A stretch of 51,623 nucleotides of DNA, from assembly GCA_017526785.1 (NCBI GenBank), contig JAFXQV010000026.1:1-51623 (forward strand), read 5' to 3'. Made by a program: the position numbers and the translations under genes. This document shows, piece by piece, positions 504 through 18,758 of the stretch. The notes beneath the pieces were generated by a model. It had not been told where the DNA came from and did no database searches. It worked only from the letters and a program-made list of their open reading frames with translations. Origin of the DNA: Oscillibacter sp. Its GTDB lineage: Bacteria; Bacillota; Clostridia; Oscillospirales; Oscillospiraceae. Position 1 is the first letter of the stretch; each line of letters starts with the position of its first letter.

Positions 504-1658
504 ATGGCGCGAAAAGCGGCGGCGGGTACCGGAAACATCCGGAAAAAAAACGTCAAGCGGAACGGGAAGGAGTACGTCTATTGGGAGGCTCGCTATACGG
601 CAGGGTACGACCCCGGAACGGGGAAGCAAATCCAGCGGAGCATTACCGGAAAGACGCAGAAGGAGGTGGCGCAGAAGCTGAAGGAGGATACGCACGAAAT
701 CGACGAGGGGACATATCGAGAGCCGTCCAGACTGACTGTGGGGGAATGGCTGGATATTTGGCAAGGGGATTATATGCGCGGGGTTAAACCCGCGACGGAG
801 AAGGTTTACGCCACAGCCATCCGAATCCATCTGAAGCCCGCCTTGGGAGCCGTGAAACTTCAAGCTCTCCACCCGCATACAATCCAGCGTTGCATCAACG
901 AGATGGATGACAAATACGCATCCGGAACTGTGCATCGCGTCTACATGGTGCTTCATCTGGCGCTGGAACGTGCGTTTCAACTGAACTACATTCCCATAAA
1001 CCCCGCCGCCAAGTGCGAATTGCCCCGGAGGGAGCGCAAGAAAATCGTTCCGCTGGATACGTCTGCTTTTCTGAAAGCGGCGGCTGGAAACAGATTTGAA
1101 ACGCTGTTTCAGGTGGCGTTCTTTACGGGAATGCGGTAAGGAGAGCTTCTGGGGCTGAAATGGGAATGCGTGGACTTCGAGAGAGGCGTGATTACCATTG
1201 ACAAGCAGCTCCAGCAGAGAAAGAACGAGTATGTGTTCTGCACTCCCAAGAGCGGAAAGAGCCGCACGATTTCTCCGGCTCCGATGGTAATGTCTTATTT
1301 GAAGGTTCAACGCGGCAGTCAAATCGAACAGCGTCTCCGGGCAGACCCGTTGTGGGAGGACTCCGGCCTTGTGTTCACCGACGAACTGGGACATCATCTG
1401 GCGGTATCTACCGTGTTCGGGAACTTTAAGCGAATCGCCAAGGCGATTGGCACCCCGGAGGCAAGATTTCACGACATCCGGCACACATACGCCGTAAACG
1501 CTATCCGCGCCGGAGACGACATCAAGACAGTGCAGGAGACACTTGGACATTTCAGCACGGCTTTCACGCTTGACGTGTACGCCCATGTGACGGATGAAAT
1601 GAAGAAGGACAGCGCGGCGAAGATGGAAGTTTTCATGAAGAACGTTCTGAAACTGTGA
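504..1658 (+). pseudogene. Tyrosine recombinase/integrase interrupted by an in-frame TAA
   Basis: This phage/ICE-type integrase would be 384 residues. The start at 504 follows AAGGTGA by four bases. The N-terminus shows an AP2-like arm-binding region (YWEARYTAGYDPGTGKQ) and a SAM-like core-binding domain (TVGEWLDIWQGDY). The catalytic domain contains the first Arg in FTGMR, the HxxR motif in FHDIRHTYA, LGH in TLGHFSTAF, and the Tyr in TLDVYAHV. Codon 212 (1137-1139) is TAA exactly where relatives usually carry a residue in TGMRxGELLGL. A CAA-to-TAA change would explain it, because the frame continues without shift to the normal stop at 1656-1658. The two halves separate the catalytic Arg from His/Tyr, so the protein is presumably inactive unless the stop is read through. 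Confidence 0.85.
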
Positions 1659-1756
1659 CGCCGCGCAAAATCTGGTAAGGGAAAAACCAAGGGAAACCGC
1701 AAGGATATAATACTCTAAAACCCGCATAATTCCTTAATTTTTGGGCTTTTACGCCT

Positions 1757-1894
1757 TTAAGTGATTGGGATGTTTTTCCATTCAATCAGCGTCGTTTCAC
1801 CGGATTTCACGTACACGGTTTTGAGTTGCGTGTCGGGAACGTAGCCTTTGTTTTCAAGTTCCCTCATGGAATACTTTCCGGCCGATAGCTTTTG
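1757..1894 (-). pseudogene. Fragment of a SpaA/Cna-B-type surface protein
   Basis: Read on the reverse strand, an open stretch of 45 codons begins after an in-frame TGA (1895-1897) and ends in TAA at 1757-1759. It encodes LSAGKYSMRELENKGYVPD and then QLKTVYVKSGETTLIEWKN. This matches the C-terminal strands of SpaA-type (Cna B-like) beta-sandwich repeats found in Clostridia pilin and adhesin-like proteins, normally repeated many times in very large secreted proteins. Here only part of one domain remains and there is no ribosome binding site, so it is a leftover of a disrupted gene. Its upstream edge near 1895 probably marks the junction with the neighbouring recombinase element. Confidence 0.55.
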
Positions 1895-2101
1895 TCAAGG
1901 GAGTATGTAACTTTTTTATAAAAAAACGGGTGGAACACAAGATTTCCGCCCGTTTCCTGAAAACGTCGTGTGAGAGCTTTATACACGCTGGTGAGATTGT
2001 GAATAGCCCTACACATAAATAGCGATAAGGAAGTAACCCTATCATCGGCAGGAAGAAAACGATATTCTTTTCCTGCCGATGATTATTCTGTGTCCGGCGC
2101 G

Positions 2102-3912
<1,811 letters not shown>

Positions 3913-4194
3913 TCACGCGCATTGTTCGCTGTCCGACGAAATCAGACGCTTGAGTTTACGCCCCAGTAGCTCCTTCCCGGCGCATTCCGTGCTGACGATG
4001 TACGTCACGCCGCCGATGACGCGCTCCACCGTGTCGTGGAACGGATAATCCGGCTCCGGAAAGCCGCCGTACTCCGTATCCTGCCCCGTCTCCCGCTCCG
4101 TGTCCTCCGGGTATGCGTCTGTCGGCTCATAGATGTCGTAGACGTTCACAGGATCGTATTCAGACTGTTTGTTGCGTTTTTTGCCGTGTTTCAA
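3913..4194 (-). CDS. TnpW-like transposon-encoded protein
   Basis: I chose the TTG start at 4194, preceded by GGGGTG six bases away, over an upstream ATG (4233) that has no ribosome binding site. The resulting protein has about 93 residues. Its C-terminus, VERVIGGVTYIV followed by GKELLGRKLKRLIS, resembles the small TnpW-type proteins found in Tn4451-like mobilisable elements, whose function is unknown. The N-terminal half is acidic and low in complexity. It lies upstream of, and in the same direction as, the large serine recombinase, as expected for a shared element. The relationship is by motif only. Confidence 0.55.
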   Translation of the reverse strand: MKHGKKRNKQSEYDPVNVYDIYEPTDAYPEDTERETGQDTEYGGFPEPDYPFHDTVERVIGGVTYIVSTECAGKELLGRKLKRLISSDSEQCA

Positions 4195-4543
4195 TAATAT
4201 CACCCCGTTTCCATTCGGAATATTTGAAATCACGCGTTATCCTGTTTCGTGATTTCGGTCGCGGCGTCACTGTCGCGCCGTGTCTTTTCATATATGTCTG
4301 ACGCTTTGTCCAAACAATTAGAATACACCATAGCGCGGGCTGTGTCAAGACTTTTTTAGAATTTTTATACGCTGAAAATAGTTGAGAAATTATATCAAAG
4401 TCTGAAAATATCTTGCATTTATGGCGAAAATAATTTGAAGTTCACGGTTTCATGTCGCTTGTTCGTTCCAGAGCGAATAATATCGCTAAACTATAGCTAA
4501 AGTTTACGGATTTGTGTGGTTACAGCTACGTAACAGTGAACGG

Positions 4544-4586
4544 ACTGCGCAATGTCACGGACAAAATGTCCGCCACGTTGCGCAGT
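4544..4586. other. Hairpin in AT-rich to repeat transition
   Basis: ACTGCGCAA (4544-4552) pairs with TTGCGCAGT (4578-4586), and an inner CGGAC/GTCCG stem sits around AAAAT. No T-run follows. The hairpin lies just before the 144-bp repeat tract, in a stretch where I see no convincing gene (4195-5714). Confidence 0.35.
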
Positions 4587-4637
4587 CTACAAGACGTGAC
4601 CCGTCACGGCGTTGAAAACGCGCTGCGGCGGGTAATT

Positions 4638-5346
4638 TGCGTGATGCGCCATCGAAAGCGGACACGGCGTCGCTATCAGAATATGAACAATCGCTATCGA
4701 ACTGCAAACGTAACGCTGGGCGCGTGACGCCAATATAACGTCACGGACACGGTGTCACGGGTGCATGGGGCGTGGCGACACGCCGACATGAGGTTGTGCG
4801 TGTACACGTCACCGCTATCAAATTACGAACAATCGCTACCAATCCGCGAACGTGACACTGGGTACGTGACGCTGACGCGCACGTCGAGGACACGACGGTG
4901 CGAGTGCGCTGGGGCGTGGCGACACGCCGACGTGAGGTCATGCGTAGACATGGCGTCGCTATCAGAATACGAAGAAATGCTATCAAATCATAAACGTGAT
5001 ACTGAGTGCATGACGCCGACATGAGCGTCGCGGACACAGAGGCGTGGGTGTAGCGAGGAGTGGCGACACGCCGACATGAAGTTGTGCGCGGACATGGTGC
5101 CGCTATCAAATCACGAATGTGACGCTGACACGCACGTCGCTGACACGATGGCGCAGGTGCGCCGCAGGATAATGACACGCCGACATGAGGTCGTTCGCGG
5201 ACACGGTTCTGCTATCAGAATACGAACAACCGCTACTAATCCGCGAACGTGACGGTAGGCGCATGACGCCAATATAAACGTCACGGACGCGGCGGCGGGC
5301 CTGTCGTGACAGCGTGACGCCGACATGAGCGTCACGGACGCGACGG
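4638..5346. repeat. Tract of degenerate ~144-bp tandem repeats
   Basis: The anchor GACACGCCGACATGAGGT or a close variant recurs at about 4777, 4921, 5065, 5174 and 5316. Successive spacings are 144, 144, 109 and 142 bases, with one more diverged unit at the left. Each unit also carries GCTATCA(G/A)A(A/T)TACGAA and a CGTGACGC...GTCAC(G)GACACG segment. The 144-base period equals 48 codons, and both strands stay open across the first three units. However, the 109-base unit breaks the frame and no ribosome binding site or known domain is seen. It may be a decayed repeat-protein gene or a non-coding structured repeat. I could assign no function. Confidence 0.6.
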
Positions 5347-5372
5347 CGCGTGACGTTCAGCGCAGGACAAAC

Positions 5373-5554
5373 AAAAAAGCCACTTTGTTAAAAGTGACCC
5401 GATTTACAAGAATGTGTACGTTTTTGCAAAAACGCGCCATGAAGAAAACAGATAAAAACTGCTTTGAAACTTGCTCAAAACCTTGCGTTTTGGGGGAGTT
5501 TTTCTTTTTGGGGGCGCTTGCAAAAACGTACAGGTTTCTGTCGGCTTAGTTCAG
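5373..5554 (-). ncRNA. Candidate structured small RNA with intrinsic terminator
   Basis: On the reverse strand an exact TATAAT (5561-5566) would start a transcript near 5554. It ends at an 8-bp hairpin (5379-5398) followed by six Ts (5378-5373), a convincing intrinsic terminator. In between, TGTACGTTTTTGCAA and its reverse complement (5518-5532 and 5415-5429) form a 15-bp closing stem, extended by GCGCC/GGCGC. An inner hairpin CAAAAC-GCAAG-GTTTTG also forms. No protein frame with a ribosome binding site fits. No good -35 box is visible, and the transcript could instead be the tail of the hydratase mRNA. Its length resembles 6S-type RNAs, but I do not claim that identity. Confidence 0.4.
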
Positions 5555-5661
5555 ATGTATATTATAGCGGGTTCCACCCACACATATGTGAATAAACTGT
5601 GAACAAATTGTAAATTTTTAGCTTTGGAGCGAAGTTTTAACATTTTTGAAATATTGCGGCG

Positions 5662-5707
5662 CGGGAAAAGAAAGGAGCGGGTTCCGCTTGCGCGGCGAAA
5701 CCCGTTC
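5662..5707 (-). terminator. Terminator after the aconitase-family hydratase
   Basis: Eight bases beyond the stop codon, reverse-strand GGAACGGGTT pairs with AACCCGCTCC, extended by CGC/GCG, and a T-rich stretch (TTTCTTTT) follows. This is a likely intrinsic terminator. Confidence 0.6.
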
Positions 5708-5714
5708 CCGGGGC

Positions 5715-8006
5715 TTATTTCGCTTTGCGGCCGCGGTTGTAGTTGATGAGACAGCCCGCTTTCACAATCTTGCGTTCGTCGTCGGTCATGCCGTCCACGT
5801 ACAGCGCGATTTTCCCGGCCTTGCCGCCGCGAATGACGTAGGCCGCGATGTCGGACAAGTCGCCGTCGAGCGCGGAACGGATACCGGGGACGTAAATCCA
5901 GTCGCCCACGTCGAAGGCGTCCGGTTCCGACTTCATCTGGAACGGAATCATGCCCCAGTTCATCACGTTGGAGCGGTAGCGTTTCGTGGCGTATTCCTTG
6001 GTGATGTTGGCGAGGCCGCCGATGACGCGCTGGCAGGAAGCGGCCTGTTCGCGGGCGGAGCCGTCGCCCGGCTTGACGGCGTATATCACGGAGCCGATTT
6101 CGGTGTCAGCGGCGGAGACGCTTTCCTGTCCGGGAATTGCGCGGATAGTCTCGAAAATGTCGGTCAGCGCGGGTTCCGCCGCCGTGACATCCTTTCCGGC
6201 GACGCGGGACTTTTCCAGCGCGTCCACGGCCTTGGAGCGCCCGACGTAGCCGGGGTCGCGGCGGCTCAGCGTGAACTCCGCGAGGCCTAACGGGTTGGAG
6301 CGGAAAGAGGACGTTTCGCCGGACGGAATCAGCTCATCCGTGGTGGTGACGGCGTCCATAATCTTGGAGCAGACTTTCAGGAGGATGTTTTCGGTAAGGG
6401 CGCTCATGTCCGGCCAGTCCTTGATGTTGGGGCCGTAGACGAGGTCTCCCGCGTCGGCTCTGCCGAAGCCCTGATAGACGCGGCGCTCGTAAATGGCCGG
6501 GTCGAAGTTGTACGCGGGTACGTCGCCCCAGCAGTCCAGCGTTTCGGCGCTGGTGAGTACGCCGCCATTGGCGGCGGTCGCGGCGATGGAGCGGGCGTCC
6601 ATAAGCGCCACGGCGGCCATTTGCCCCTTGCCGGGGTTGGAGCCTTCCCGGTTGGGGAAATTGCGCGTGGTGTGCCGGACGGACAGGCCGTTATTGGCGG
6701 GGGTGTCGCCCGCGCCGAAGCAGGGGCCGCAGAACGCCGTGCGGAGAATCGCGCCGGACGCCATGAGGTCGGCGGCGAAGCCCTTGCGGGTGAGGTCGAG
6801 AAATACCGGCTGGGAGGACGGATACACCGACAGCGAAAACTCCCCGTTGCCACAGCTCTTGCCGCGCAGACAGTTGGCGGCCTCCGCGACGTTCGTATAG
6901 CCGCCGCCCGCGCACCCGGCAATAATGCCCTGCTGGACGTGCAATTTACCGCCACGGATTTTGTCGGTCAGCGTGTACAGGGCGCGGCCGCCGCTGACTT
7001 TCTCCGCCGCCTTTTCCACCTCGCGCAGAATGTCGCCCAGATTCGCGTTGAGTTCGTCGATTTCGTAGGCGTTGGACGGGTGGAACGGAAGCGCAATCAT
7101 CGGCTTGACCGTGGACAAGTCCACGTACACACAGCCGTCATAGTAAGCCACGTCGGCGGGGTTGAGTTCCCTGTAGTCGCCGCCGCGCCTGTGTTCCGTC
7201 AGAAAGGCCTTGGTGTCGCCGTCCGTGCGCCAGACGGAGGAAAGGCACGTCGTCTCCGTCGTCATCACGTCAACGCCGTTGCGGTAGTCGGTGGACATCG
7301 ACGACACGCCCGGCCCCACAAATTCCATGACCTTGTTCTTCACGTAGCCATTCTGGAATACCGCGCCGATAATGGCCAGCGCGACATCCTGCGGCCCCAC
7401 GTACGCCCGAGGCTTGCCCGTCAGGTAAACGGCCACAATGCCGGGATACTTGACATCATAGGTATCTTCTAACAGTTGCTTGACGAGTTCGCCGCCGCCC
7501 TCCCCGATAGCCATAGTCCCCAGCGCGCCGTAGCGGGTATGGGAGTCGGAGCCAAGAATCATCTTGCCGCAACCGGCGTGCATTTCGCGCATGTACTGGT
7601 GAATCACGGCGATATGGGGCGGCACATAGATTCCGCCGTACTTCTTGGCCGCCGAGAGGCCAAACAGGTGGTCGTCCTCGTTAATCGTGCCGCCGACGGC
7701 GCACAGCGAGTTATGGCAGTTCGTCAGCACATAGGGCAGCGGAAACTTTTCCATGCCCGACGCTTTCGCGGTCTGGATAATGCTGACAAAGGTAATGTCG
7801 TGGGAGGCCATCACGTCGAATTTCAGCTTCAGGCCTTCCATGTCGCCGGACGTGTTATGGGCTTTCAGGATGGAATAGGCAATCGTACCCCGTCTGGCGT
7901 CGGCCTTACTCCTGCCTTGCAGGGCGGGATGTTTCGCCGCGTCCGCGTCCGCCACGATTTCCGAGCCGTTGACCAGCCACGCGCCGCCGTCATATAACTT
8001 TACCAT
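5715..8006 (-). CDS. Aconitase-family hydratase (YbhJ-like)
   Basis: The protein has 763 residues. The start at 8006 ([10 protein letters not shown]) follows GAGGAGG, whereas an upstream ATG lacks such a site. It is a four-domain aconitase-superfamily enzyme: [20 protein letters not shown] and [16 protein letters not shown] carry the Cys residues that would hold a [4Fe-4S] cluster. The stretch [14 protein letters not shown] matches the substrate-binding RNFxGR-like loop, and the C-terminal swivel domain contains [13 protein letters not shown]. Members annotated simply as hydratase occur in many Clostridia. The substrate (citrate/isocitrate or another hydroxyacid) cannot be told from sequence. 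It is transcribed alone from an extended -10 promoter and lies downstream of metG in the same direction, separated by a palindromic repeat. Confidence 0.9.
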
Positions 8007-8062
8007 TCGTTTTTCCTCCTCGCATGGTTTCCGGTTCTGTCCGCGTAACGGACATCGCGAAA

Positions 8063-8071
8063 AGTATACCA
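8063..8071 (-). promoter_or_regulatory. Extended -10 promoter of the hydratase gene
   Basis: TGGTATACT on the reverse strand fits a TGnTATAAT-type extended -10 element about 55 bases before the hydratase start. The -35 region is weak. Confidence 0.4.
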
Positions 8072-8131
8072 TACGCGCCGCGAGATTACCAGAGCGGCGG
8101 GAAAGTTGTGTAAAGGAATCATTGGCAAAGT

Positions 8132-8180
8132 CCGCCCCTCCGTCACTCCGTGACGCCTCCCCCGCTGTGCGGGGGGCGGG
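8132..8180. repeat. Palindromic REP-like element downstream of metG
   Basis: An outer CCGCCCC/GGGGCGG pairing encloses two smaller hairpins, CGTCAC-TCC-GTGACG and CCCCGC-TGT-GCGGGG. Similar CCTCCGTCA...GACGCCTCCCCC palindromes are, from memory, scattered through intergenic DNA of related Clostridia. Here it probably also serves as the metG terminator structure, although it lacks a strong T-run. Confidence 0.5.
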
Positions 8181-8183
8181 ATA

Positions 8184-10274
8184 TCAGCAAAGTTTCGCTC
8201 CGGCGGGGATTGCGTCATCTAAAATGATAAGGTTCAATTTTTCCTCGCCGCGTTCCTTGTGGACGGCGGAGAGCAACATACCGTTGCTTTCCAGCCCCAT
8301 CATCTTGCGCGGCGGCAGGTTCACGATAGCGGCCAGCGTCTTTCCGATGAGCGTTTCCGGCTCGTACCACGGATGAATGCCCGACAAAATCTGTCTGTCG
8401 GTGCCGGAGCCGTCGTCGAGCGTGAAGCGCAACAGTTTCGCGCTCTTTTTGACCGCCGTACAGTCCTTGACCTTGACGACGCGGAAATCACTCTTGCAGA
8501 ACGTCTCGAAGTCGACGGGGGTTTCCGTCCACGGTTCCAACTCCACGGGCGGGAGCGCGGCCTTTTTGGCGGCCTCCGACGCCGCTTCCAGTTCGGCCAA
8601 GGCCTTGTCCATGTCCACACGCGGGAAGAGGTTCTCCCCCTTGGAGATTGTCGCGTCCACGGGGAGCGTACCCCATACGGCGGCACTGTCCCACGTTTGC
8701 GCGGCTTCCGGCGCGCCGATTTGCGCGAACAGCTTCTGGCACGATTCCGGGATAAACGGCGTGAGCAGTACGCCGCAGATACGCGCCGTTTCCAGCAGGT
8801 TGTAGAGGACATGTGCCAGACGCGCCCCGTTTGCGTCCATGTCCTTGGCCAGCGCCCACGGCGCGTTCTCGTCAATATACTTGTTCGCCCGCTGGATGAC
8901 CTTGAAGATTTCGGACAGCGCGTTATGGGGCGCGAAGGCCTCCATTTGTTCCTCGTAACGGTTCCGGAGACCGGACGCCAGCGCGACAAGCTGGGCGTCG
9001 TAGAGAAGCGGGTCGCCGTCCTGTACGGCGGAGAGCGTGACATCGTTCCCAGCGGACGCCAGCGCCGCTAAGTCGGTTTCGTCGCGGGTAGCCCCGGCGG
9101 ATTCCGGGAGCTTGCCGCCAAAGTATTTGACGGCCATTGCCGTGGTACGGGAGACAAGGTTTCCCAAGTCGTTTGCAAGGTCGGTGTTGATGGTCTGAAT
9201 CAGGAGTTCGTTGGAGAAGTTGCCGTCGGAGCCGAAGGGGAACGTACGCAGCAGGAAGAAGCGCAACGCGTCGACGCCGAACTGTTCCGCCAAAATATAC
9301 GGGTCGACGACGTTGCCTTTCGATTTCGACATTTTGCCGCCGTCGAGCAACAGCCAGCCGTGGCCGAATACGTGTTTTGGGACGGGTTCGCCCAAACTCA
9401 TGAGCATGGCAGGCCAGATAATCGAATGGAACCGCACGATTTCCTTTCCGACGATGTTGACGGCGGTCTGGCTTCTCTCGCACGAATTTTCGCGGACAGT
9501 CTCGCCGCGCCAGTAACGGTCGTAGTCGTGGTACTGGTCGTTCTCGTATCCAAGGGCGGTGATATAGTTGCTGAGGGCGTCGAGCCAGACATAGACGACA
9601 TGCTTTGTGTCGAAGTCGACCGGAATGCCCCACTGGAAACTCGTCCGCGACACGCACAAGTCCTCCAGACCGGGGTCAAGGAAGTTTTTGACCATTTCGT
9701 TGACGCGGCTCCGGGGCTGTAAAAAGTCCGTGTTCTCCAGCAGGTCACGGATACGGTCGGCGTACTTGCTCATACGGAAGAAGTAGGCCTCCTCCTCGGC
9801 GTCGACGACGGGGCGTCCGCAGTCGGGACAGCAGCCGTCTTTCAACTGGCTTTCCGTCCAGAACGATTCGCACGGCGTACAGTATTTTCCCTTGTACTTG
9901 CCAAGGTAGATGTCGCCGTTTTCGTACATGCGGCGGAAAATGCGCTGTATCGACTTGACGTGGTAATCGTCGGTCGTACGGATGAAGCGGTCATTGGAGA
10001 TGTTCATCAGCCGCCACAGGTCGCGGACGCCGCGCGGCCCCTCCACAATGCCGTCCACGAACTCTTTGGGCGAAAGCCCGGCCTCTTTGGCTTTTGCCTC
10101 GATTTTCTGTCCGTGTTCGTCGGTTCCTGTCAGGAAGATTACGTCCCGGCCTTTGAGGCGCTGGTAGCGCGCCAAGGCGTCCGTGGCGACGGTGCAGTAA
10201 GTGTGTCCGATGTGGAGCTTGTCGGACGGGTAATAAATCGGCGTCGTGATAAAATAGGGTTTGCGTTCTGACAT
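8184..10274 (-). CDS. metG: Methionyl-tRNA synthetase
   Basis: This 696-residue class I aminoacyl-tRNA synthetase charges initiator and elongator tRNA-Met. The N-terminal Rossmann fold has TTPIYYPSDKLHIGHTYC with the HIGH motif near residues 21-24. A zinc-knuckle insertion shows YCTPCESFW and CCPDCGRP. The KMSKS loop is at residues 314-318 (GGKMSKSKGN), followed by an anticodon-binding helical domain. The C-terminal 110 residues form an EMAP/Arc1p-like tRNA-binding domain (DFRVVKVKDC, LPPRKMMGLESNGMLL). The start at 10274 follows AAAGGAGG. The gene is divergent from the giant ATPase gene and shares a 203-base intergenic region with it. The leader from the likely -10 is too short for a T-box. 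Confidence 0.97.
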   Translation of the reverse strand: MSERKPYFITTPIYYPSDKLHIGHTYCTVATDALARYQRLKGRDVIFLTGTDEHGQKIEAKAKEAGLSPKEFVDGIVEGPRGVRDLWRLMNISNDRFIRTTDDYHVKSIQRIFRRMYENGDIYLGKYKGKYCTPCESFWTESQLKDGCCPDCGRPVVDAEEEAYFFRMSKYADRIRDLLENTDFLQPRSRVNEMVKNFLDPGLEDLCVSRTSFQWGIPVDFDTKHVVYVWLDALSNYITALGYENDQYHDYDRYWRGETVRENSCERSQTAVNIVGKEIVRFHSIIWPAMLMSLGEPVPKHVFGHGWLLLDGGKMSKSKGNVVDPYILAEQFGVDALRFFLLRTFPFGSDGNFSNELLIQTINTDLANDLGNLVSRTTAMAVKYFGGKLPESAGATRDETDLAALASAGNDVTLSAVQDGDPLLYDAQLVALASGLRNRYEEQMEAFAPHNALSEIFKVIQRANKYIDENAPWALAKDMDANGARLAHVLYNLLETARICGVLLTPFIPESCQKLFAQIGAPEAAQTWDSAAVWGTLPVDATISKGENLFPRVDMDKALAELEAASEAAKKAALPPVELEPWTETPVDFETFCKSDFRVVKVKDCTAVKKSAKLLRFTLDDGSGTDRQILSGIHPWYEPETLIGKTLAAIVNLPPRKMMGLESNGMLLSAVHKERGEEKLNLIILDDAIPAGAKLC

Positions 10275-10306
10275 AAAAACAGCCTCCTTTTTCAGTCGCG
10301 GGTTCC

Positions 10307-10334
10307 ATTATAGCGGAAACGGACGAAATTACAA
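10307..10334 (-). promoter_or_regulatory. Promoter of metG
   Basis: Reverse-strand TTGTAA (10329-10334) and an exact TATAAT (10307-10312) are spaced by 16 bases, 33 bases before the metG start. Confidence 0.55.
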
Positions 10335-10408
10335 TCCCCATTTTGCTTTTCGGCGCGGAATCGAACACACGGCACATATATTTTGATTGTGTCCGCGAAA
10401 AAACACTC

Positions 10409-10437
10409 TTGAAAATCGCTTGCGGATGTGGTATAAT
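10409..10437 (+). promoter_or_regulatory. Strong promoter of the giant ATPase/HEPN cassette
   Basis: TTGAAA (10409-10414) and TATAAT (10432-10437) are separated by exactly 17 bases. AAGGAGG (10464-10470) then precedes the GTG start at 10478. The match to the housekeeping consensus suggests steady expression independent of metG. Confidence 0.75.
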
Positions 10438-10477
10438 TTCTGTGGAAAAATTTTGACATGCACAAGGAGGCTTTTTT

Positions 10478-13400
10478 GTGTCAAGGCTTATCATGAAATC
10501 GCTCTCAAAATTGCGGAGCGGAGACGCCGTTTCCGTCACCTATGGGAACGTGACCCACCCGGAGACGCTCTCCGGGACTGTGACGGAGAACGAAACCGAG
10601 TACGACGCCAGTCGCAATCCCACTGGCGGAACGCTTATGCTGACGGATGAGGCGGGACAAGAACTGTTTTTGAGCTACAGCATCATTCACGGCTGGAAGC
10701 AGGTCACGTCAGTGTCACCCGCGCCCGTACCCGCGTCCGCGCCGATAGCGGCACCTGCGGCGGCACCGACGCCGATACCGGAACCCAAAATCGAGATTAT
10801 GTCCTTATTGAGAGACGAAGTGTCCGTTGCCGGACTTGCGCTCAGTGACCGGAAAATCCGTGACCTGTTCGGACAGCTCCCCCGTAAGGAACGGAAAAAA
10901 CTTGACGCCGCGTATAGTAAATTCCAATATGGGGTGAAATGCACCGACCGGGAGCGGATGTCAGCGGCGGCACGCGCCGCCTACCAACTCATCACCCAGC
11001 CGCAGACACTGCGTCAGGACGGCTGGAGTACGGACGCGGCCTGCTTCTGCGGGGCGCTTCTTGCGCGCGCGGGTCTGTACTACGCGGATGTGTTTCTTGT
11101 GGGGAGATGTTTCCACGAGGCCGCTCTGTGCGCGTTCCGGGAAAAGACGTGGGCGAAGGCGGGCGCGTACGCCGCGCTGGCACTGCTCGAACCCGATGCC
11201 AGACACCCCGAGGACTCTTCCGAGGAGGATTTGCTGACCATTCTGACGGTCAGCGCCCTGAACGCCAAAGACCTGTCGGCCATTCGTCTGCTGGACAAAC
11301 GCCTTGGTATCGCGTTTCAACCGAATCTGCGACGGGTGCTGGCCGCGCTGGTGTCCAGTCGGCCGCTTCCGGAGGCCGTCAATACGCAGGACACAGAGCG
11401 TACGCTTTCGGCACTCGCGCCGCACTTCCCCGGAACGGAAAGTATGGCGGAAATCCGGCGCTTCACGGCCTTGGAGGCCGACGAGGATGTGTCCGGCGGC
11501 GTCCAAATGCCGGAACCGCCCACGATTTCCGCGCCGCCCGAGCGCCGTTACACTGGCTGGATTAGCAAACTCGACTGGGGCGGCCGCCGGGGAGAAATCA
11601 CCGCGCCCGACGGGCGTTGCTACTTCGCCTATCAGGAAGTGGAAAAGCCCCTTGCCCAGAAGTTAGAGGAGAACTTAAATAACCGTCTGGAAGGCCCCCT
11701 GCTGTGGGTGAGCTTCATTCCCCGCGAGGGCTGGGCGTACGAAATCCGCGCCGCAGAATCGCCGCTTGTGCTGGCGCGGCAGGCCGCCGCGCGCGGGGAG
11801 TATGAGAACGCTATCGCCTTGTGCGAGGAGGCCGCGCTGACGCCCGACGCCCAAAACGCTATGGGCGACCTTGTGCAGTTCGCCTTGGAAAAGTTCCGCA
11901 TGGACAGGCAGACGGATACGCTCTACGAGGTGGAGTCGTTCTTCCGCGCCCATCAGGACGCCTACCCGCAGGAACCGTGGCGTATCGCGGCCGTCGGGCA
12001 GTTGTACTATGGCCTCTGTCAGTTCCCCGTGTCGCGTGAGTATCTGGGACAGGCGCTGCAGGCCGGACCCATCAGCGCCAAAGTGCGCTCGACGTTCCTC
12101 GCGCAATATATCCGCTCCTGTATCCGCAGTTACTACGAGAAGCTCGACCTGTCCCTCATGGACGACGTGCGGCGGAGCGCGCAAGAGTGGCTCGACCTCT
12201 ACCACAGCGACGAACTCAGCGGCGACGAACAGAACGCCCGTTTTTACCCGCGCATTCTGATTTGGAAGTGCCGCGCCGAGTGTGCGCTGAACATGCCCGA
12301 CGAGGCCGAGGAGGACTTGCGCCTTGCGTCGGAGGTTCTCCCGCCCTACGACGAACGCCTTGCGCGTTCGTACGCCGCGCTGGAGGAGACCCGCAAACGC
12401 GTGAACCGTAACCGCCCCGACGCAAACGGCGCTCCCGTGGAATCCAACACTTTTAATGACCCCGCCGTTTCCGGGGAAGATGTCGCGGAAGCCCTTCCCC
12501 GCGACGAGGACGCGTCCGGCGATGAGAATGCCGACGAAGACGAATACGACGAAGAAGAGCCGGAAGCCGGGGACGAGAATATGGAGACCGTCCCCTATCA
12601 AGACAAGGACGGCTGGGCGGCGCTCGGCCTGACGAAACAGGATATTGTCGGCGGCGCAATGGGGTTCGACGGCTCCGACGCCGTGCCGCTGGCCGTCGCC
12701 TACCTGAAAGCCGCCTCCACGCTCAACGATTCCCTCTTACCCGTCTACCGCATTGCCGCCCTTGCCGTCAGCGACCCCATGACGACCTGCGACTACTCCA
12801 TTTCCACGCTCCTGAACGCGTTCGAGAACATGGACACCGACTATCCGCGCTTGACCGACTTCTGTATGGGGGCGGCGTTTCTGCGGGCGTCGTTCCTGTC
12901 CGGGCGCGGCTGGGACTTCACCGCGCGCGGCCTCCGCGACAGCATTTCCGTCGTCCGGGACTTGCCCGCGCTACAGGGTGCCTGCGACACCCTCGACGAG
13001 TTCCGCAATCTCTCCGGGCAGGCCATGGACATTTACGCCGATTACCGGAATCAGGACGTGAACCGTATCCGGGACGAACTGGAAGAAGTCGTACACCACG
13101 CGGAGGAGGTCTACCGCCGTTTCGTGCTGACGCCGCCGCGTGAGGGTGTGCGTTTCGCCCGGCTTCTGGAAACGAAAAAAATCGCGTTCGCCAAGGAAAA
13201 CTGGCTTTCGACCATGGTTCACCACGTCATGGAACGCGACCACGCCGCGCTGGAAGCCGAACGGGACAACTTCGTGGAACGTTACCTGAACGGCGTGCCG
13301 CTGTTCTCACACAAGCAGTTGAGTACCGACGCCGTGGACGAGTTCATAGAGGACTGCTGGACGCAGGCCGCAAAGCGTCTGCGCCTCCAGAAGGAACACA

Positions 13401-16219
13401 CGGACTTGCAGGGCGACCGCCGGAATAATCTCCGCTCCAACATTACGGAAATGCTGGACGTTATCTGCCACTGGTACGCGCTGACCGGACGGAATTCCGG
13501 CATGATAGGGCGTACGCCGGAGGGAGAGGCCGCCGCCGCCAATCTCCACCCGCGCCTGTCCGGGCAGTTGGAGGAACTCGCCGCCTATTGTCAGGACACC
13601 GTGTTGCAGGCCGACACCCCGGAAGACCGTCTCGGCCTCCGCATTCTGGGACACACCGCGCAGGAACTCTCCGACCGTCTCGAAGGCCGTTGGAGTTTCG
13701 AGCAGGAAAATTTCTTCTATGTCACGTTCCTGAAAAGCGACGCCATTCTTTTGGACGAGGACTTTCTGCCGGACTTCTCCTCCACGTTCTGCGCCCTGCC
13801 GGAATTGAATGTGCTTGCCCGCATTCGCGCCCACGCCGAAAGCGAGTTTTCCGACTGGCAGACGCGCCTTGACCGCATTTACGGCCCCGACAGAACCGCC
13901 CACAACTACGGCACCGCCGCCCGCATTCTGGCCTATCTCCGCGCCACCGGCCACGCCGACGCCGTGACCGTCCCCGAAAACGCCGAACAGTTCGACACGC
14001 AGGCGCGTCTACAGGCCGGCGTCCGCTTCCGGAGCTTCTTGGAGGCCTACGCCCTCGCCATGAACTACGGGCAGATTATGCACTCCGACAATTTCTGTGC
14101 AACGCTGGAGGACACGGTTCGCTACTGGTACGTGGACTGCCTCAAAAGCCGGAACTACGGCTTCTTCAACCGGATTCTCACGCAGGCTATGGACAAAATC
14201 CACGAGAGCGCGCAGGAGTACGAATCGCTTCTCAGCGCACAGCTTGACGCGCTCATCAGCGGCAATCAGGAGCAGTTCGACCAGCACCCCGGCTATATTG
14301 ACGCCATCCGCGAACAAATCACCAATCAAAATTTCATCGTCGCGGAGGACTGGATGCGCCGTATCCGCGTCGGGGACTTCTCGCTCGATATCCAACAGCC
14401 GGAGGCGCTCGGATATCTGGAGGACTTCTGGAACAGCTACGCGGCGGTCTATAATAAGGTGTCCGACGCCAGCCGCTCTTTGTCCGCGCTTCTGGGCGGA
14501 CGCCGCGTCCGCAACAAGGACATGAAGGGCGCACAGCAGCTTATCGACAACTGGCTCAACAACGGCAGTCCGTCCAGCCCCGAACGTATCACGCAACTGC
14601 TCAACCGTCTGGGGTGGAACAACATCCAAGTGACGGCGTACCGCTTCCCCGCCGACCCCAAGACCGAAATCTACCACGCCAAGCAGGACGCGGAAGCCGC
14701 CAATATGACCGCGCCGCTTCACCCTATCGCGGCGTTCGGCTCCCGGTTAGCCCGGGAGGGTATGTACGTCGTCTGCCTCTACGGCTCCTACGACTGCGAC
14801 CGCCTCTACGAGAAAATCCGCTCCCTCGACGCACTCGACGGGAACAAGGTCATTCTGCTGGACTACGCCCTCGGCGGCGTCGACAGACGCGTACTCGCCC
14901 GCAAAATCAAACAGCGGGAAAGCGGCCTCCGGAACGTCTATCTGGTCATTGACCGCGTTCTCCTCTGCCACCTCGCCAACAACTACAACGAAAATCTGAT
15001 TAACCGTATCTTAATGGCGGACGGTATTCCGTTCTCGTACTGTCAGCCGTACGTCGTGGAGTCGTCGCACACCATGCCGCCGGAAATCTTCATCGGCCGG
15101 AAAGACGAACTGCTTCGCATTGAGGACCCCAACGGCGTGAACCTGATTTACGGCGGGCGTCAGCTCGGGAAGTCCGCGCTCTTCAAAAAGGCTCGCGGCG
15201 ACTTGGACGGCAATCAGGGACGCCGCGCCGTGCTGGTCGATATCAAGGACTGCGACTGCGCCGCCGCCGCCCGGAGGCTGTCCATGGAACTCATGGAGCT
15301 GGAAATGCTCCCCGACGACGGCCCCGCCATTGAGGACTGGGACGAACTCTGTGACCTGATTCGCCGCTATCTGCGCCGCAATGAGGATGTCCGTTATCTG
15401 CTCATCATGCTGGACGAGGCCGACACGTTCATTTCCGATTGCAGCCAGTACAACTACAAGCCGCTCGTGAACCTGAAAAACATCCAGCAAATTTTGCCGG
15501 GGCGCTTCAAGTTCGCGCTGGCCGGACTGCATAACATTATCCGTTTCAACCGGGAAGTGGCGCTCGGAAAGAACGCCGTCATTACGCAGTTCTCCTCCCT
15601 GAAAATTACGCCGTTCCGCACCCCGGAGGCGCAGGAACTCTTAACGGCTCCGCTGAGCTATCTGGGGCTGTCCCTGCCAAGCCGCGTGACCGTCTCGCAG
15701 ATTCTGGCCACCGTGAACTACTTCCCCGGCCTGATTCAACTGTACTGCCAGAAACTGATAGAATCCCTCCGCGCCCCCGACTACGCCGGGTACGATGTCA
15801 AGCGCACGCCGCCCTATGTCATCACCGACGACCACCTCCGCCGCGTCATGGCCGACAAGGAATTTATGGAGCAAATCCGGGAAAAGTTTGAAATCACGCT
15901 CCGCCTCGACCAAGACCAAGGCAGTTGCTACTACCCGCTGACGCTCTTAATCGGCTGGATGTACACGGACGAACCGTCGCGCGGCGGCTACACGGCGGGG
16001 GATATCCTCCGGCACGCGAAAGACCTGTCTATCGCGCCTCTGCGCGACCTCTCCGAAGAACAGGTTGACGCGCTCTTGCAGGAGCTTCAGGATTTGAACA
16101 TTCTGCGGAGCGTCAGTCAGGACACCTACCTTCTGGCGTCCAAAAACTTCCGCGACCTGCTCGGCTCCGATGACCAGATTTTCGAGAAGCTGTCCCGCAT
16201 GGGGGAGGGCAACGCATGA
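10478..16219 (+). CDS. Giant multidomain protein with CSD-like module, helical repeats and C-terminal P-loop ATPase
   Basis: The protein has 1,913 residues and starts with GTG seven bases after AAGGAGG. Residues 4-75 look like an SH3-type barrel, followed by a Pro/Ala linker. Residues 358-425 resemble a cold-shock/OB fold (YTGWISKLDWGGRRGEI, CYFAYQEV, LLWVSFIPREGWAYEIR). A long helical, TPR-like body is split by an acidic linker (about 665-700). Residues 1420-1535 form an alpha/beta segment leading to FIGR (1538-1541). An ATPase follows with Walker A GGRQLGKSA (1559-1567), Walker B LLIMLDEAD (Asp1646-Glu1647) and a winged-helix-like tail, so AAA+/STAND-like. There is no signal peptide or membrane segment, so it is cytosolic. 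It is translationally coupled to the HEPN-motif gene behind it. I infer a nucleotide-driven sensor or scaffold controlling that protein, perhaps against phage. The family name is unknown to me. Confidence 0.75.
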   Translation: MSRLIMKSLSKLRSGDAVSVTYGNVTHPETLSGTVTENETEYDASRNPTGGTLMLTDEAGQELFLSYSIIHGWKQVTSVSPAPVPASAPIAAPAAAPTPIPEPKIEIMSLLRDEVSVAGLALSDRKIRDLFGQLPRKERKKLDAAYSKFQYGVKCTDRERMSAAARAAYQLITQPQTLRQDGWSTDAACFCGALLARAGLYYADVFLVGRCFHEAALCAFREKTWAKAGAYAALALLEPDARHPEDSSEEDLLTILTVSALNAKDLSAIRLLDKRLGIAFQPNLRRVLAALVSSRPLPEAVNTQDTERTLSALAPHFPGTESMAEIRRFTALEADEDVSGGVQMPEPPTISAPPERRYTGWISKLDWGGRRGEITAPDGRCYFAYQEVEKPLAQKLEENLNNRLEGPLLWVSFIPREGWAYEIRAAESPLVLARQAAARGEYENAIALCEEAALTPDAQNAMGDLVQFALEKFRMDRQTDTLYEVESFFRAHQDAYPQEPWRIAAVGQLYYGLCQFPVSREYLGQALQAGPISAKVRSTFLAQYIRSCIRSYYEKLDLSLMDDVRRSAQEWLDLYHSDELSGDEQNARFYPRILIWKCRAECALNMPDEAEEDLRLASEVLPPYDERLARSYAALEETRKRVNRNRPDANGAPVESNTFNDPAVSGEDVAEALPRDEDASGDENADEDEYDEEEPEAGDENMETVPYQDKDGWAALGLTKQDIVGGAMGFDGSDAVPLAVAYLKAASTLNDSLLPVYRIAALAVSDPMTTCDYSISTLLNAFENMDTDYPRLTDFCMGAAFLRASFLSGRGWDFTARGLRDSISVVRDLPALQGACDTLDEFRNLSGQAMDIYADYRNQDVNRIRDELEEVVHHAEEVYRRFVLTPPREGVRFARLLETKKIAFAKENWLSTMVHHVMERDHAALEAERDNFVERYLNGVPLFSHKQLSTDAVDEFIEDCWTQAAKRLRLQKEHTDLQGDRRNNLRSNITEMLDVICHWYALTGRNSGMIGRTPEGEAAAANLHPRLSGQLEELAAYCQDTVLQADTPEDRLGLRILGHTAQELSDRLEGRWSFEQENFFYVTFLKSDAILLDEDFLPDFSSTFCALPELNVLARIRAHAESEFSDWQTRLDRIYGPDRTAHNYGTAARILAYLRATGHADAVTVPENAEQFDTQARLQAGVRFRSFLEAYALAMNYGQIMHSDNFCATLEDTVRYWYVDCLKSRNYGFFNRILTQAMDKIHESAQEYESLLSAQLDALISGNQEQFDQHPGYIDAIREQITNQNFIVAEDWMRRIRVGDFSLDIQQPEALGYLEDFWNSYAAVYNKVSDASRSLSALLGGRRVRNKDMKGAQQLIDNWLNNGSPSSPERITQLLNRLGWNNIQVTAYRFPADPKTEIYHAKQDAEAANMTAPLHPIAAFGSRLAREGMYVVCLYGSYDCDRLYEKIRSLDALDGNKVILLDYALGGVDRRVLARKIKQRESGLRNVYLVIDRVLLCHLANNYNENLINRILMADGIPFSYCQPYVVESSHTMPPEIFIGRKDELLRIEDPNGVNLIYGGRQLGKSALFKKARGDLDGNQGRRAVLVDIKDCDCAAAARRLSMELMELEMLPDDGPAIEDWDELCDLIRRYLRRNEDVRYLLIMLDEADTFISDCSQYNYKPLVNLKNIQQILPGRFKFALAGLHNIIRFNREVALGKNAVITQFSSLKITPFRTPEAQELLTAPLSYLGLSLPSRVTVSQILATVNYFPGLIQLYCQKLIESLRAPDYAGYDVKRTPPYVITDDHLRRVMADKEFMEQIREKFEITLRLDQDQGSCYYPLTLLIGWMYTDEPSRGGYTAGDILRHAKDLSIAPLRDLSEEQVDALLQELQDLNILRSVSQDTYLLASKNFRDLLGSDDQIFEKLSRMGEGNA

Positions 16220-17274
16220 ACCCCGACAATATCTGGTGGGGTCAGATTGGAAACTCTCTGCGCCTGCTGGCGAACGTGACGGAACATCTCCGCGACCATC
16301 GTTCGGCGGTGCTGTCCATGCCGGAGCGCTTCCCGTGGCGGGAGCGCTTCTACCGGGAAATCGACATCCGGCGCGCCCCGTACAGCGTGGCGCGTCGCCT
16401 GAAACGTGTCGCGTGGTCTGGCAAGGGCGAACCCGGGCAATTTATCCTGTCAGACATGTGTCCGCTCGACGTGCAGGCCGACTACTGGCCGGGGCAGACG
16501 TACGGGGAGTATCTCGCGTCCCGGCGCAATCTGACAATCAACGATTACGATATCTGGATTACCGGAGTACACCGGAAATCCGACCTGATGAAGTGGGCGG
16601 AGTTCGTGACGCAGTATCACGCCGCCGTCAGGGACGCGGAACCCCACGCGGTCTTTCTCATCGAGTACGACGGCCCGCCGATGAAGTCCGGGAACTTGGA
16701 GCAGATTTCGTGTCAGGTGGAGCGCTACGACTGCCGCGTGTTTTGTCTGGAAATGGCGGCGGCGCTGTCCGGAACGCACCTGCGCGACTATCAGGCCGAA
16801 CTCGCGTTGAGTATCGCGGGCAGTCAGCCGGAGCTCTGCGCGGCGCTTCTGGACACTGGCGGGCGTCTCGTGGAGGAACCCTTGGAGACGGCGCGGCAAG
16901 TCCTCGCCACGGCGCGCGACTCGGACGGCAAGCATTTTCCCGCCCAGACCGAAAGCGAACTCATCAGTAAGGTATGGCTCGCGGCCGTGGCGCTCTTGTT
17001 CCCGCTCATGGAGCGCTACCGTATCGACTTCATAGAGCGGCACAAGCTCGAACTGTCGCGCTTCCTGCCGATATCCAATTCCAACGGCGACGAAGTGACG
17101 GAACCATTTGACTTGGAAATCGGCGCGCTGTGCTACATCATCGCCAATCTGCGGGTACATTTATTCACCCCCATGGAGGTCAACGGACTGCGCCTCTGCC
17201 GCCGGATACGGAACCAGCTTGCGCACAACAAGCCCGTGGACTGCGCCGACGTGCAGGCCGTCATGGACTTGTAA
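16216..17274 (+). CDS. HEPN-motif protein, partner of the giant ATPase
   Basis: The protein has 352 residues. Its ATG at 16216 overlaps the previous stop (ATGA) and is preceded by GGGGGAGG. The first half is mixed alpha/beta with conserved-looking stretches (NDYDIWITGV, AVFLIEYDG, CRVFCLEMAAAL). The C-terminal half is helical and ends with RRIRNQLAHN, a classic HEPN R-x4-H motif (Arg332, Asn333, His337) typical of metal-independent RNases in CRISPR, toxin-antitoxin and abortive-infection systems. HEPN motifs can also be non-catalytic scaffolds, so RNase activity is inferred. The overlap with the ATPase gene implies co-production and probably a complex. No other effector is encoded in the cassette. 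Confidence 0.7.
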   Translation: MNPDNIWWGQIGNSLRLLANVTEHLRDHRSAVLSMPERFPWRERFYREIDIRRAPYSVARRLKRVAWSGKGEPGQFILSDMCPLDVQADYWPGQTYGEYLASRRNLTINDYDIWITGVHRKSDLMKWAEFVTQYHAAVRDAEPHAVFLIEYDGPPMKSGNLEQISCQVERYDCRVFCLEMAAALSGTHLRDYQAELALSIAGSQPELCAALLDTGGRLVEEPLETARQVLATARDSDGKHFPAQTESELISKVWLAAVALLFPLMERYRIDFIERHKLELSRFLPISNSNGDEVTEPFDLEIGALCYIIANLRVHLFTPMEVNGLRLCRRIRNQLAHNKPVDCADVQAVMDL

Positions 17275-17387: not shown

Positions 17388-18758
17388 ATGAAACAATGGA
17401 TATTCTGGTTTTCGCTGACGCTGTGTCTGTGTCTGGCGGGGTGCGGCGTCGCGGGGGACGGGGACGCCGAAACCGTCGCGGAACCGGAGACTGTCCCGGC
17501 GCGGGCGGATTATGTCACCACGCTGTCCTTCTGGTTCGCGGCGAACGGTACCGGGGAATCCGTCATGCGGGAAATTCTGGACGACTTCAACGCCTCCCAC
17601 GGAGACTACTATGTGCAGGGAACGGTCTTTAGCGGCTATGAGGAACTCAACAACGCGGTAATGGCCTCCTTCACCACGGGGACAGCGCCCGATATTGTAC
17701 TTTTGGAGCGGGACATGTCCATAGACTTGCGGCAAAAGGGGCTGACCGTGGATTTGACGCGGATTTTGCAGGGGGACATTCATTTCAACGCCGGGCGCTT
17801 CCTCTCCGTCTATTACAATCAGGGCGTGTCGGAGGACGGGCGGATTTTCGCCATGCCGCTCTACGGCACAACGCAGGTATTGTACTACAACAAAGCGGCA
17901 TTCCGGGAAGCGGACATCGACCCGGAATCCATCCGGACGTGGGGCGACTTGGCCGACGCCGCGAGGGCGATTCAGGCCACTGGACACTATGCCTACGGCT
18001 GGGAACCCATGTGGGGCTACGAAAACATGCTTGACGCGGCGCTGTCCAACGGCGGCACGGTCTTTTCCCCGGACGGGCGCACGGTGACTATCAACACGCC
18101 GGAGTGGGTCGAGGTCTGGGAGGCGTTCCGGGAGTACCTCCACGAGGCGCGGATTATGCGCGTACACTCCGGCGGACACGGCTGGGAGTATTGGGACTAC
18201 ACGCGGAACGATGTCCTGCAAGGCGTCGCGGGGGGCTATACCGGTTCCTCCGGTGACCAGGCCGACGTTGACTTTGAGCGGGTGGGCATGCTTGAACAGC
18301 CCGCATGGCGCGAGGGAACCACCGCGCTTCCCGAGGCCAAAGCACTGCTTCTCAACGTCCTGAGTACGTCCGCGCAGGACAGGCAAATCGGCGCTTACGC
18401 GCTGATTCGGTACTTAATCGACGTTCCCGCGCAGGTTCGCTGGACAATGGGGACGGGCTATATCGCCGTCAATCAGGATGTCTTGCAAGACGGGGACTAT
18501 CAAGACTATCTGACCCGGAACCGGTACGCCCAAGTCCCGCTGAATCAGAGCAGACACGCCTCCGTGTACCCGTACGACCCCACGGGCGGCGTTATCCGGA
18601 AGGTGTTGCAACTGGCGGCCGACCAAGTGCAGATTGAGAACTTGAGCGCGCAGAAAGCGTTAGACGAGGCGCAGTGGAAGGCGCAACAGGCCTTGGACGC
18701 GACGCTTCCCCCGGAAGCCGTCGAGACGGGAAATCAGAATGGGGGCGCGGGAGAATGA
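17388..18758 (+). CDS. Extracellular solute-binding lipoprotein (family 1)
   Basis: The protein has 456 residues. A signal peptide ends in the lipobox LAGC with Cys19 as the lipidated residue, so it is tethered outside the membrane. Its features (DDFNASHGDYYVQGTVFSGYEELNNAVMAS, split here only for reading, then TAPDIVLL, MPLYGTTQVLYYNKAAF, TWGDLADAARAIQ) fit the family-1 carbohydrate-binding proteins of ABC importers (UgpB/MalE type). No ABC permease or ATPase lies nearby. Instead the stop overlaps the start of a BMP-type binding protein, and a hybrid histidine kinase follows. I therefore infer that it presents a ligand to the kinase rather than, or as well as, to a transporter. The ligand is unknown. 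AAGGAAG precedes the ATG by nine bases. Confidence 0.85.
   Translation: MKQWIFWFSLTLCLCLAGCGVAGDGDAETVAEPETVPARADYVTTLSFWFAANGTGESVMREILDDFNASHGDYYVQGTVFSGYEELNNAVMASFTTGTAPDIVLLERDMSIDLRQKGLTVDLTRILQGDIHFNAGRFLSVYYNQGVSEDGRIFAMPLYGTTQVLYYNKAAFREADIDPESIRTWGDLADAARAIQATGHYAYGWEPMWGYENMLDAALSNGGTVFSPDGRTVTINTPEWVEVWEAFREYLHEARIMRVHSGGHGWEYWDYTRNDVLQGVAGGYTGSSGDQADVDFERVGMLEQPAWREGTTALPEAKALLLNVLSTSAQDRQIGAYALIRYLIDVPAQVRWTMGTGYIAVNQDVLQDGDYQDYLTRNRYAQVPLNQSRHASVYPYDPTGGVIRKVLQLAADQVQIENLSAQKALDEAQWKAQQALDATLPPEAVETGNQNGGAGE

Follow-up and report, generated by a model that had tools for sequence, protein, structure and literature searches.

Among the defence systems described so far, the closest to the locus treated here are the BREX-related Type 1 (Hma) systems with DUF499, in which an ATPase of the ORC/STAND type is combined with a HEPN ribonuclease (RNase) of the Abi2/Swt1 family, the HEPN domain being fused to the N-terminus of the ATPase and the locus also carrying a methyltransferase and a helicase-nuclease (PMC3710099, PMC12839542; these and the other papers are cited from excerpts). 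STAND and ORC ATPases act as nucleotide-dependent assembly switches (PMC9122126), and HEPN RNases are metal-independent (PMC3710099) and typically dimeric (PMC13092281). We analysed contig JAFXQV010000026.1 of an Oscillibacter sp. (51,623 nucleotides (nt), hereafter the window), where an original prediction, made from the letters alone, had proposed an undescribed two-gene conflict system at positions 10478–17274. This pair differs from Hma in that the predicted HEPN domain lies on a separate, P-loop-less ORC/STAND-like subunit and the core consists of two genes. With a probability of roughly 0.6, we read it as a two-subunit, NLR-like conflict system made of a STAND-type ATPase switch and a HEPN RNase effector, most likely directed against invaders. 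The two genes are:

10478–16219, + strand: gene 1, open reading frame (ORF) of 1,913 amino acids (aa) with GTG start; large protein, predicted sensor-type STAND/ORC ATPase
16216–17274, + strand: gene 2, ORF of 352 aa with ATG start; predicted HEPN partner

Conserved pairing of the two genes

The gene pair is a real unit and the association is near-obligate. A degenerate pattern derived from the alignment of the ATPase region retrieved 432 stretches in GTDB contigs (422 relatives), and the best 80 loci, picked by the ATPase alone, were examined. A complete partner gene was found directly downstream of the ATPase in 73 of them (72 by script and L048 by inspection), and five more (L056, L074, L062, L098 and L103) carry a partner cut by the contig end, recognised with E-values from 7e-15 to 1e-142 by a hidden Markov model built without them. 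The conserved pairing that had been anticipated is thus seen in 78 of the 80 loci. The other two, also at contig ends, have too little sequence left to show a partner: L055 keeps 211 bases after the ATPase, with nothing significant in them, and L102 stops within the ATPase. The 4-nt overlap predicted for the window, and given there by the ORF coordinates, recurs exactly at 34 of 75 junctions (33/74 by script, plus L048).

An even draw of 348 genomes across the phylum gave a strong ATPase match (E <1e-60) in ten, with weak matches (E 1e-4 to 1e-7) in 12 further genomes. Nine genomes had a partner match, all of them within the ten and with the match nearby on the same contig; seven of the nine matches cover the HEPN part only (profile positions from 246). 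In the tenth ATPase genome, G420, inspection revealed a downstream ORF of 475 aa with RNCLAH. The match counted in G120 has one in-frame stop in the partner and an ATPase frame of just 917 residues, and this copy may be broken. In-frame stops or broken ATPase frames in L059, L204 and G120 suggest that some copies are decaying.

Evolutionary distances of the two proteins are correlated with r = 0.912 (61 pairs), a value that none of 2,000 permutations reached (maximum 0.115), and r is still 0.718 among diverged pairs. Since the shared descent of linked genes also yields such a correlation, it speaks for a unit and not for contact. The partner alignment behind the counts below (A3, 74 rows) omits L055, L062, L098, L102 and L103 (contig ends) as well as L056 and L074 (cut partners); set A4 omits L043 (near the window), L059 (in-frame stop) and contigs too short at the N-side, and set A5 comprises 49 of the 74 A3 rows plus three plasmid partners.

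A HEPN-like domain in the partner

16216–16941, + strand: gene 2 residues 1–242, predicted ORC/STAND-like domain without P-loop
16942–17271, + strand: gene 2 residues 243–352, predicted HEPN domain, Swt1-like, from helix layout and hhalign
17209–17226, + strand: HEPN motif RNQLAH, residues 332–337 (R332, N333, H337)

The C-terminus of the partner is predicted to be a HEPN-like helical domain resembling that of Swt1, with putative RNase activity. The motif RN-x-[LIS]-[AS]-H is present in 74/74 aligned partners, across which R332, N333 and H337 are invariant together with E266 and R269, and E301, at the edge of the second HEPN helix, is kept in 70/73. Helices are predicted at residues 246–275, 302–312, 319–336 and 343–351, with a short one at 277–281, and RNQLAH sits at the end of helix 319–336; a motif at the helix end belongs to the definition of the superfamily (PMC3710099). 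By hhalign, the HEPN part of the partner scored 95.9 % against 11 of the 12 HEPN_Swt1 segments, four of these 11 being under the family's cut-off (60 shuffles, at most 4.8 %), and 91.1 % against the seven segments over the cut-off (60 shuffles, at most 3.5 %); the reversed profile and the N-domain of the partner, used as controls, gave 0.2 % each. A HepT-like profile, built with four of the 30 fetched HepT loci unused, matched at 7.4 %. The Pfam model HEPN_Swt1 itself was found in six of the 74 partners, at best with E 0.01 and amid other chance-level families. Invariant motif, helix layout and Swt1 profile match together support the HEPN domain of the original prediction, which had named a C-terminus without a HEPN helical bundle as the result that would count against it. 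The partner had also been said to end in RNQLAHN: the motif is there at 332–337, but not at the very end, 15 residues following it. Complete partners have a median length of 355 aa (range 340–464).

The N-domain of the partner has no profile relation to the ATPase (0.2 %), so that an origin by duplication from the ATPase is not supported. It may be best explained as the docking part, by analogy with BREX, in which an active BrxC is accompanied by BrxB, a STAND protein lacking Walker motifs (PMC12839542).

A switch-type ATPase in the large protein

10478–12577, + strand: gene 1 residues 1–700, variable N-terminal region, candidate recognition part, with low column conservation
11540–11764, + strand: gene 1 residues 355–429, segment earlier read as cold-shock-like, fold not confirmed
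12578–14722, + strand: gene 1 residues 701–1415, conserved body; residues 1270–1377 are predicted helical (the model spans these only)
14723–15028, + strand: gene 1 residues 1416–1517, conserved alpha/beta segment before the ATPase, common to plasmid relatives
15044–16168, + strand: gene 1 residues 1523–1897, predicted ORC/STAND-type ATPase and its C-terminal part
15152–15175, + strand: Walker A GGRQLGKS, residues 1559–1566, a sequence motif
15413–15418, + strand: Walker B acidic pair D1646-E1647, a sequence motif

An ORC/STAND-type P-loop ATPase at the C-terminus of gene 1 is supported by motifs, by Pfam matches of the family and by predicted structure, in agreement with the class first proposed. 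GGRQLGKS (from residue 1559) and the DE pair (1646–1647) are just where a P-loop and a Walker B had been read, and G-x4-GK-[ST] is kept in 63/63 aligned ATPases. Among these 63 members, AAA_22, ATPase_2 and nSTAND_NTPase4 matched 44, 26 and 3, respectively (Pfam, E 0.01); the large protein of the window itself matched none of the three. The predicted structure of the ATPase resembles 2qen, ORC, BrxC and plant NLRs in the PDB, and Avs3 loosely. Searched against PDB sequences, the ATPase profile retrieved TnsC alone (E 0.09 and 0.24) and the window protein gave no match.

Across 60 proteins, the mean conservation of columns per 50 residues is 0.12–0.22 over residues 1–700 and 0.28–0.71 over residues 701–1900. 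The length of the large protein ranges from 793 to 2,209 aa (median 1,876.5) in the 62 relatives with the frame start inside the contig. TPR matches in it stay below the Pfam cut-off. The cold-shock-like module of the original prediction was not confirmed: Pfam found no cold-shock domain in the large protein, the segment (residues 355–429) occurs in only part of the family, and a profile of 27 members matched two true cold-shock proteins at 2.2 %, no better than 40 column shuffles, although with two templates only this is a weak test.

Distribution, plasmids and transfer

Among 149 relatives, own genome included, the partner was found in 8 and the ATPase in 10 (a diverged partner in G007, missed by this search, is visible as an ORF), while metG, which adjoins the pair in the window, occurs in 75 of 86 genomes of the genus. 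The pair is therefore patchy and not core, contrary to what a set of syntenic genes shared by all relatives would look like. Most of the best 80 GTDB loci come from Clostridia or from Bacillota related to them, and by their records many are isolates or metagenome-assembled genomes (MAGs) from gut or rumen. The phyla with pairs are Bacillota, Spirochaetota, Rhodothermota, Pseudomonadota and Actinomycetota, and several of the pairs lie on plasmids. The impression that similar pairs exist in other gut Clostridia was thus correct, and the range extends beyond Clostridia.

In the ATPase tree, the copies of two Lachnospiraceae MAGs, L057 and L061, fall inside a group of 14 rows (support 99/97) that is otherwise Oscillospiraceae, Butyricicoccaceae or unplaced. 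The copy of a Spirochaetales MAG, L090, joins seven Clostridia copies, mostly of Lachnospiraceae (100/100), although its branch is long, its composition odd and its position unsure. These placements suggest transfer; the alternative is that contigs were mis-binned.

The ATPase region is matched by 24 plasmid records (20 listed), and 16 of the loci were inspected. A partner recognised by the HEPN profile follows in nine, namely in Salinibacter, Thiodictyon, Methylocystis, Streptomyces, Agrobacterium, two Azospirillum, Bradyrhizobium and Microvirga. The loci without it are those of Brasilonema, Bosea, Euzebya, two Streptomyces (the ATPase of L204 is broken), Cupriavidus and Burkholderia. A tblastn search of plasmids with the Thiodictyon partner returned its own record only. 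In L202, an IMG/VR contig, the pair stands beside phage tail and endolysin genes, a cluster that may be a prophage or a gene-transfer agent.

Relatives with other heads and second subunits

In Azospirillum oryzae (L035, NZ_CP054617.1, genes 693–10463 and 10556–12133) a single protein of 3,256 aa combines pPIWI-RE X, MID and RNaseH domains with the ATPase module at its C-terminus, and the partner carries RRGMAH and an AAA_33 domain. Partners in Bradyrhizobium, Agrobacterium and Microvirga have RN-x-x-AH followed by a second P-loop; AAA_33 was called by Pfam only in the Azospirillum oryzae and Bradyrhizobium partners. Such a partner as that of L035 could possibly unite RNase and RNA kinase in one chain beside a guide-binding, PIWI-like protein. 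L203, L040 and L209 resemble L035 by their RNaseH annotation, pPIWI-RE being found by Pfam in L035 alone; in L203 (Azospirillum ramasamyi) 687–3227 and 3252–10463 are annotated as two genes, where the sister species has one RNaseH-annotated ATPase gene.

On the Brasilonema plasmid pBOCT2 (L032, 3879–10748) a sigma-70 factor with regions 1.2, 2, 3 and 4 is fused N-terminally to the ATPase. The next gene there has PLD and SNF2-type helicase matches. In Cupriavidus (L207, 10454–13255) and Burkholderia (L208, 10397–13165) the second gene encodes 922 to 933 aa and overlaps by 4 nt; the HEPN profile did not match these proteins, and that of Cupriavidus had no match among PDB sequences. The second gene of Euzebya (L038, 10133–12820), of 895 aa, shows weak TPR matches and no match to the HEPN profile.

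Relatives with pPIWI-RE or sigma-70 heads and varied second genes lend support to a modular platform, an idea that we put forward tentatively, holding it for somewhat less than an even chance. The ATPase would be the hub of an undescribed, exchangeable immune platform, with recognition heads that vary (the variable region in Clostridia, pPIWI-RE modules for guide binding or even an entire sigma-70 factor) and with second subunits that vary as well (a P-loop-less ORC-like domain plus HEPN, the same with an AAA_33 kinase-like domain, or unrelated proteins of ~925 aa), an NLR-like switch and its RNase being separate subunits co-inherited across several phyla.

Promoter and neighbouring genes

10409–10437, + strand: sigma-70-type promoter TTGAAA-N17-TATAAT (11/12 matches); the site recurs in relatives
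10464–10470, + strand: ribosome-binding site AAGGAGG, 7 nt ahead of the GTG start, read from the sequence

A count of promoter-like sites is weak by itself, because the 7.25-kb stretch contains four, where shuffling leads one to expect 1.9 (sd 1.4). The identical site with its 17-nt spacer stands 5' of gene 1 in three of the five relatives examined (L027, L029 and L030), and the consensus promoter claimed for the window is borne out by this conservation; in the remaining two the start pattern was not matched.

Downstream genes differ in the window, G003 and G069, that is in all three genomes that show them, in keeping with the variable neighbours foreseen; the remaining contigs stop near the pair. 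The gene downstream of the window pair has a match in 2/86 genus genomes, one being the window's own. This gene (17388–18758), presumably solute-binding-like, has a second copy of 65 % identity in its own genome (G000:C2:121188) and occurs otherwise in 1/85 other genus genomes. The window's genome also contains two HepT-like matches (G000:C28:78736–79020 and G000:C27:18195–18476).

Proposed function and competing explanations

In the two-subunit conflict system that we favour, the variable N-terminal ~700 residues and the conserved body would recognise a cue marking an invader or a crisis. The P-loop domain at the C-terminus would then exchange or hydrolyse nucleotide and so alter the assembly state of the large protein, on which the partner would dock via its own P-loop-less ORC/STAND-like domain. 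The Swt1-type HEPN RNase would be kept silent until the ATPase switches; once activated, paired HEPN domains would cut RNA (tRNA, mRNA or rRNA), leading to dormancy or death of the cell and stopping the growth of the phage. We infer in this scheme the physical complex, the sensing, the RNase activity and the phage as cue, and with them the anti-phage function.

Several results weigh against it. With the motif masked, the HEPN profile drops to 10.9 % against Swt1 (hhalign), the window partner passes no Pfam HEPN model, and the HEPN profile retrieved no HEPN entry among PDB sequences, only KU80 at E 1.3. The fold match of the partner in the PDB is moderate (best Foldseek E 5.9e-4, TM 0.34) and barely covers the HEPN part; the missing HEPN chains are uninformative here, because the alignments covered mostly the N-domain. 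Seven of the 16 inspected plasmid ATPase loci have no HEPN-profile partner, so that the ATPase family reaches beyond the pair. Just one relative was found on a viral contig, and phage records gave no match. The neighbours in the window are metG and genes that we take to be transport- and signalling-like, with no recognisable defence genes among them.

The wider neighbourhood gives a mixed picture. A PADLOC scan (E 1e-10) of 133 ORFs, a random draw out of the 242 neighbour ORFs of 86 loci, matched 70 families, and a control scan of 130 ORFs from 20 arbitrary stretches also matched 48, kinase, helicase and mad models included, counts which give no per-gene ratio as one protein matches many models. 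Among the 25 of 70 families listed for the pair are Csb2/Cas56g, Cas10d, Cas5, Csn2, AbiEi, a DRT reverse transcriptase, AriA and mad, whereas the 25 of 48 listed for the control are mostly PD-T4-6 models, plus mad3, mad6, C3a189 and MkoA; the two lists differ in kind, which is suggestive. CRISPR arrays lie near 2/99 pair loci (1.56 Mb) and near 0/60 controls (0.40 Mb), no meaningful difference. The expected enrichment near known defence genes is thus hinted at by the PADLOC families, but the control has matches too. About 2.6 kb separate the pair of L164 (2749–13087) from a CRISPR array with ten repeats, and the gene in between (4049–5563) is probably the Csb2-like match of the PADLOC scan.

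The alternative that survives best, although we consider it unlikely, is a toxin-antitoxin-like maintenance module, in which a HEPN toxin restrained by the ATPase would be freed once the pair or the ATP charge is lost, any phage defence being a side effect or lacking altogether. As such a module would, the pair has two genes that often overlap, a patchy occurrence and some plasmid copies, and HEPN domains are known toxin-antitoxin effectors (PMC3710099); but a first gene of ~1,900 aa with a variable N-terminus of 700 residues far exceeds the needs of an antitoxin, an MNT partner is missing and the match to the HepT-like profile is low.

More improbable still is a role unconnected with invaders, in RNA surveillance or the stress response of the cell, the ATPase remodelling ribonucleoprotein or ribosome complexes and the HEPN domain trimming damaged RNA. 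Both genes are under purifying selection (dN/dS 0.09–0.15 against four relatives) and metG stands upstream of the pair in the window, G009, G067, G069 and G019 (other genes in G003), as a housekeeping role would have it. Such a role is disfavoured because the pair is patchy, the ATPase being present in 10/149 relatives and 10/348 phylum genomes against 75/86 for metG, and the plasmid copies, the variable N-terminus and the pPIWI-RE-fused relative also speak against it. Least probable of all is that the HEPN-like domain has no catalytic activity or serves only for nucleic-acid binding, the ATPase complex itself acting, e.g., on invading DNA: two Azospirillum partners carry RRGMAH in place of RNxxAH and some ATPases have no HEPN partner, but R, N and H are invariant in 74/74 aligned partners and R-x4-H is retained in the ten listed partners from plasmids and the viral contig.

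Comparison with known systems

For the proteins of the window, PADLOC (2023) gave no match, NCBIfam one chance match, and Pfam only TPR and DUF6548, both sub-threshold, so the statement that the pair matches no named defence system stood up in these three libraries. BREX, Hma, Avs, CoCoNuT and HEPN-MNT were considered and none was assigned. As to Hma, DUF499 is absent from the eight Pfam families matched by 63 ATPases (E 0.01). BREX combines BrxC with BrxB, an inactive STAND NTPase (PMC12839542), whereas here the small subunit carries the HEPN domain; neither window protein matches the BREX models of PADLOC, and the loci were not searched for PglZ. In Avs/AVAST and in TIR/SIR2-STAND-TPR proteins, effector, STAND and sensor are described in one chain with C-terminal repeats (PMC9122126), while here the ATPase is C-terminal, the effector is a separate gene and PADLOC has no match.

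HEPN-MNT toxin-antitoxin systems share two genes and a HEPN RNase with the pair, but no MNT appeared in the Pfam scan, the second gene is a 1,913-aa ATPase and the HepT-like match is 7.4 %. The pPIWI-RE systems are described as a set of REase, DinG helicase and pPIWI-RE (PMC3702460); the likeness lies in Azospirillum oryzae, in which the ATPase module follows a pPIWI-RE module within one protein and has a HEPN-like partner, but by Pfam the window protein has no PIWI part. CoCoNuT of types II and III-A resembles the pair in having an NTPase hub and a separately encoded HEPN effector, and some of its members have OB-fold parts, but its McrB-type GTPase and McrC homologue are of another fold and family (PMC11090510).

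A description of this gene pair was not found in the full-text literature, the coverage of which is partial, with most subscription papers outside it, and the pair looks like an undescribed conflict system. It is tightly paired and patchy, and the libraries with which the window proteins were compared contain no match for it. If the favoured reading is right, it adds to the bacterial relatives of NLR immunity a two-subunit design, in which a sensor ATPase works with a P-loop-less ORC/STAND-like HEPN effector. Since some relatives join this core to pPIWI-RE or sigma-70 heads, a comparison of natural members could show what each head senses.

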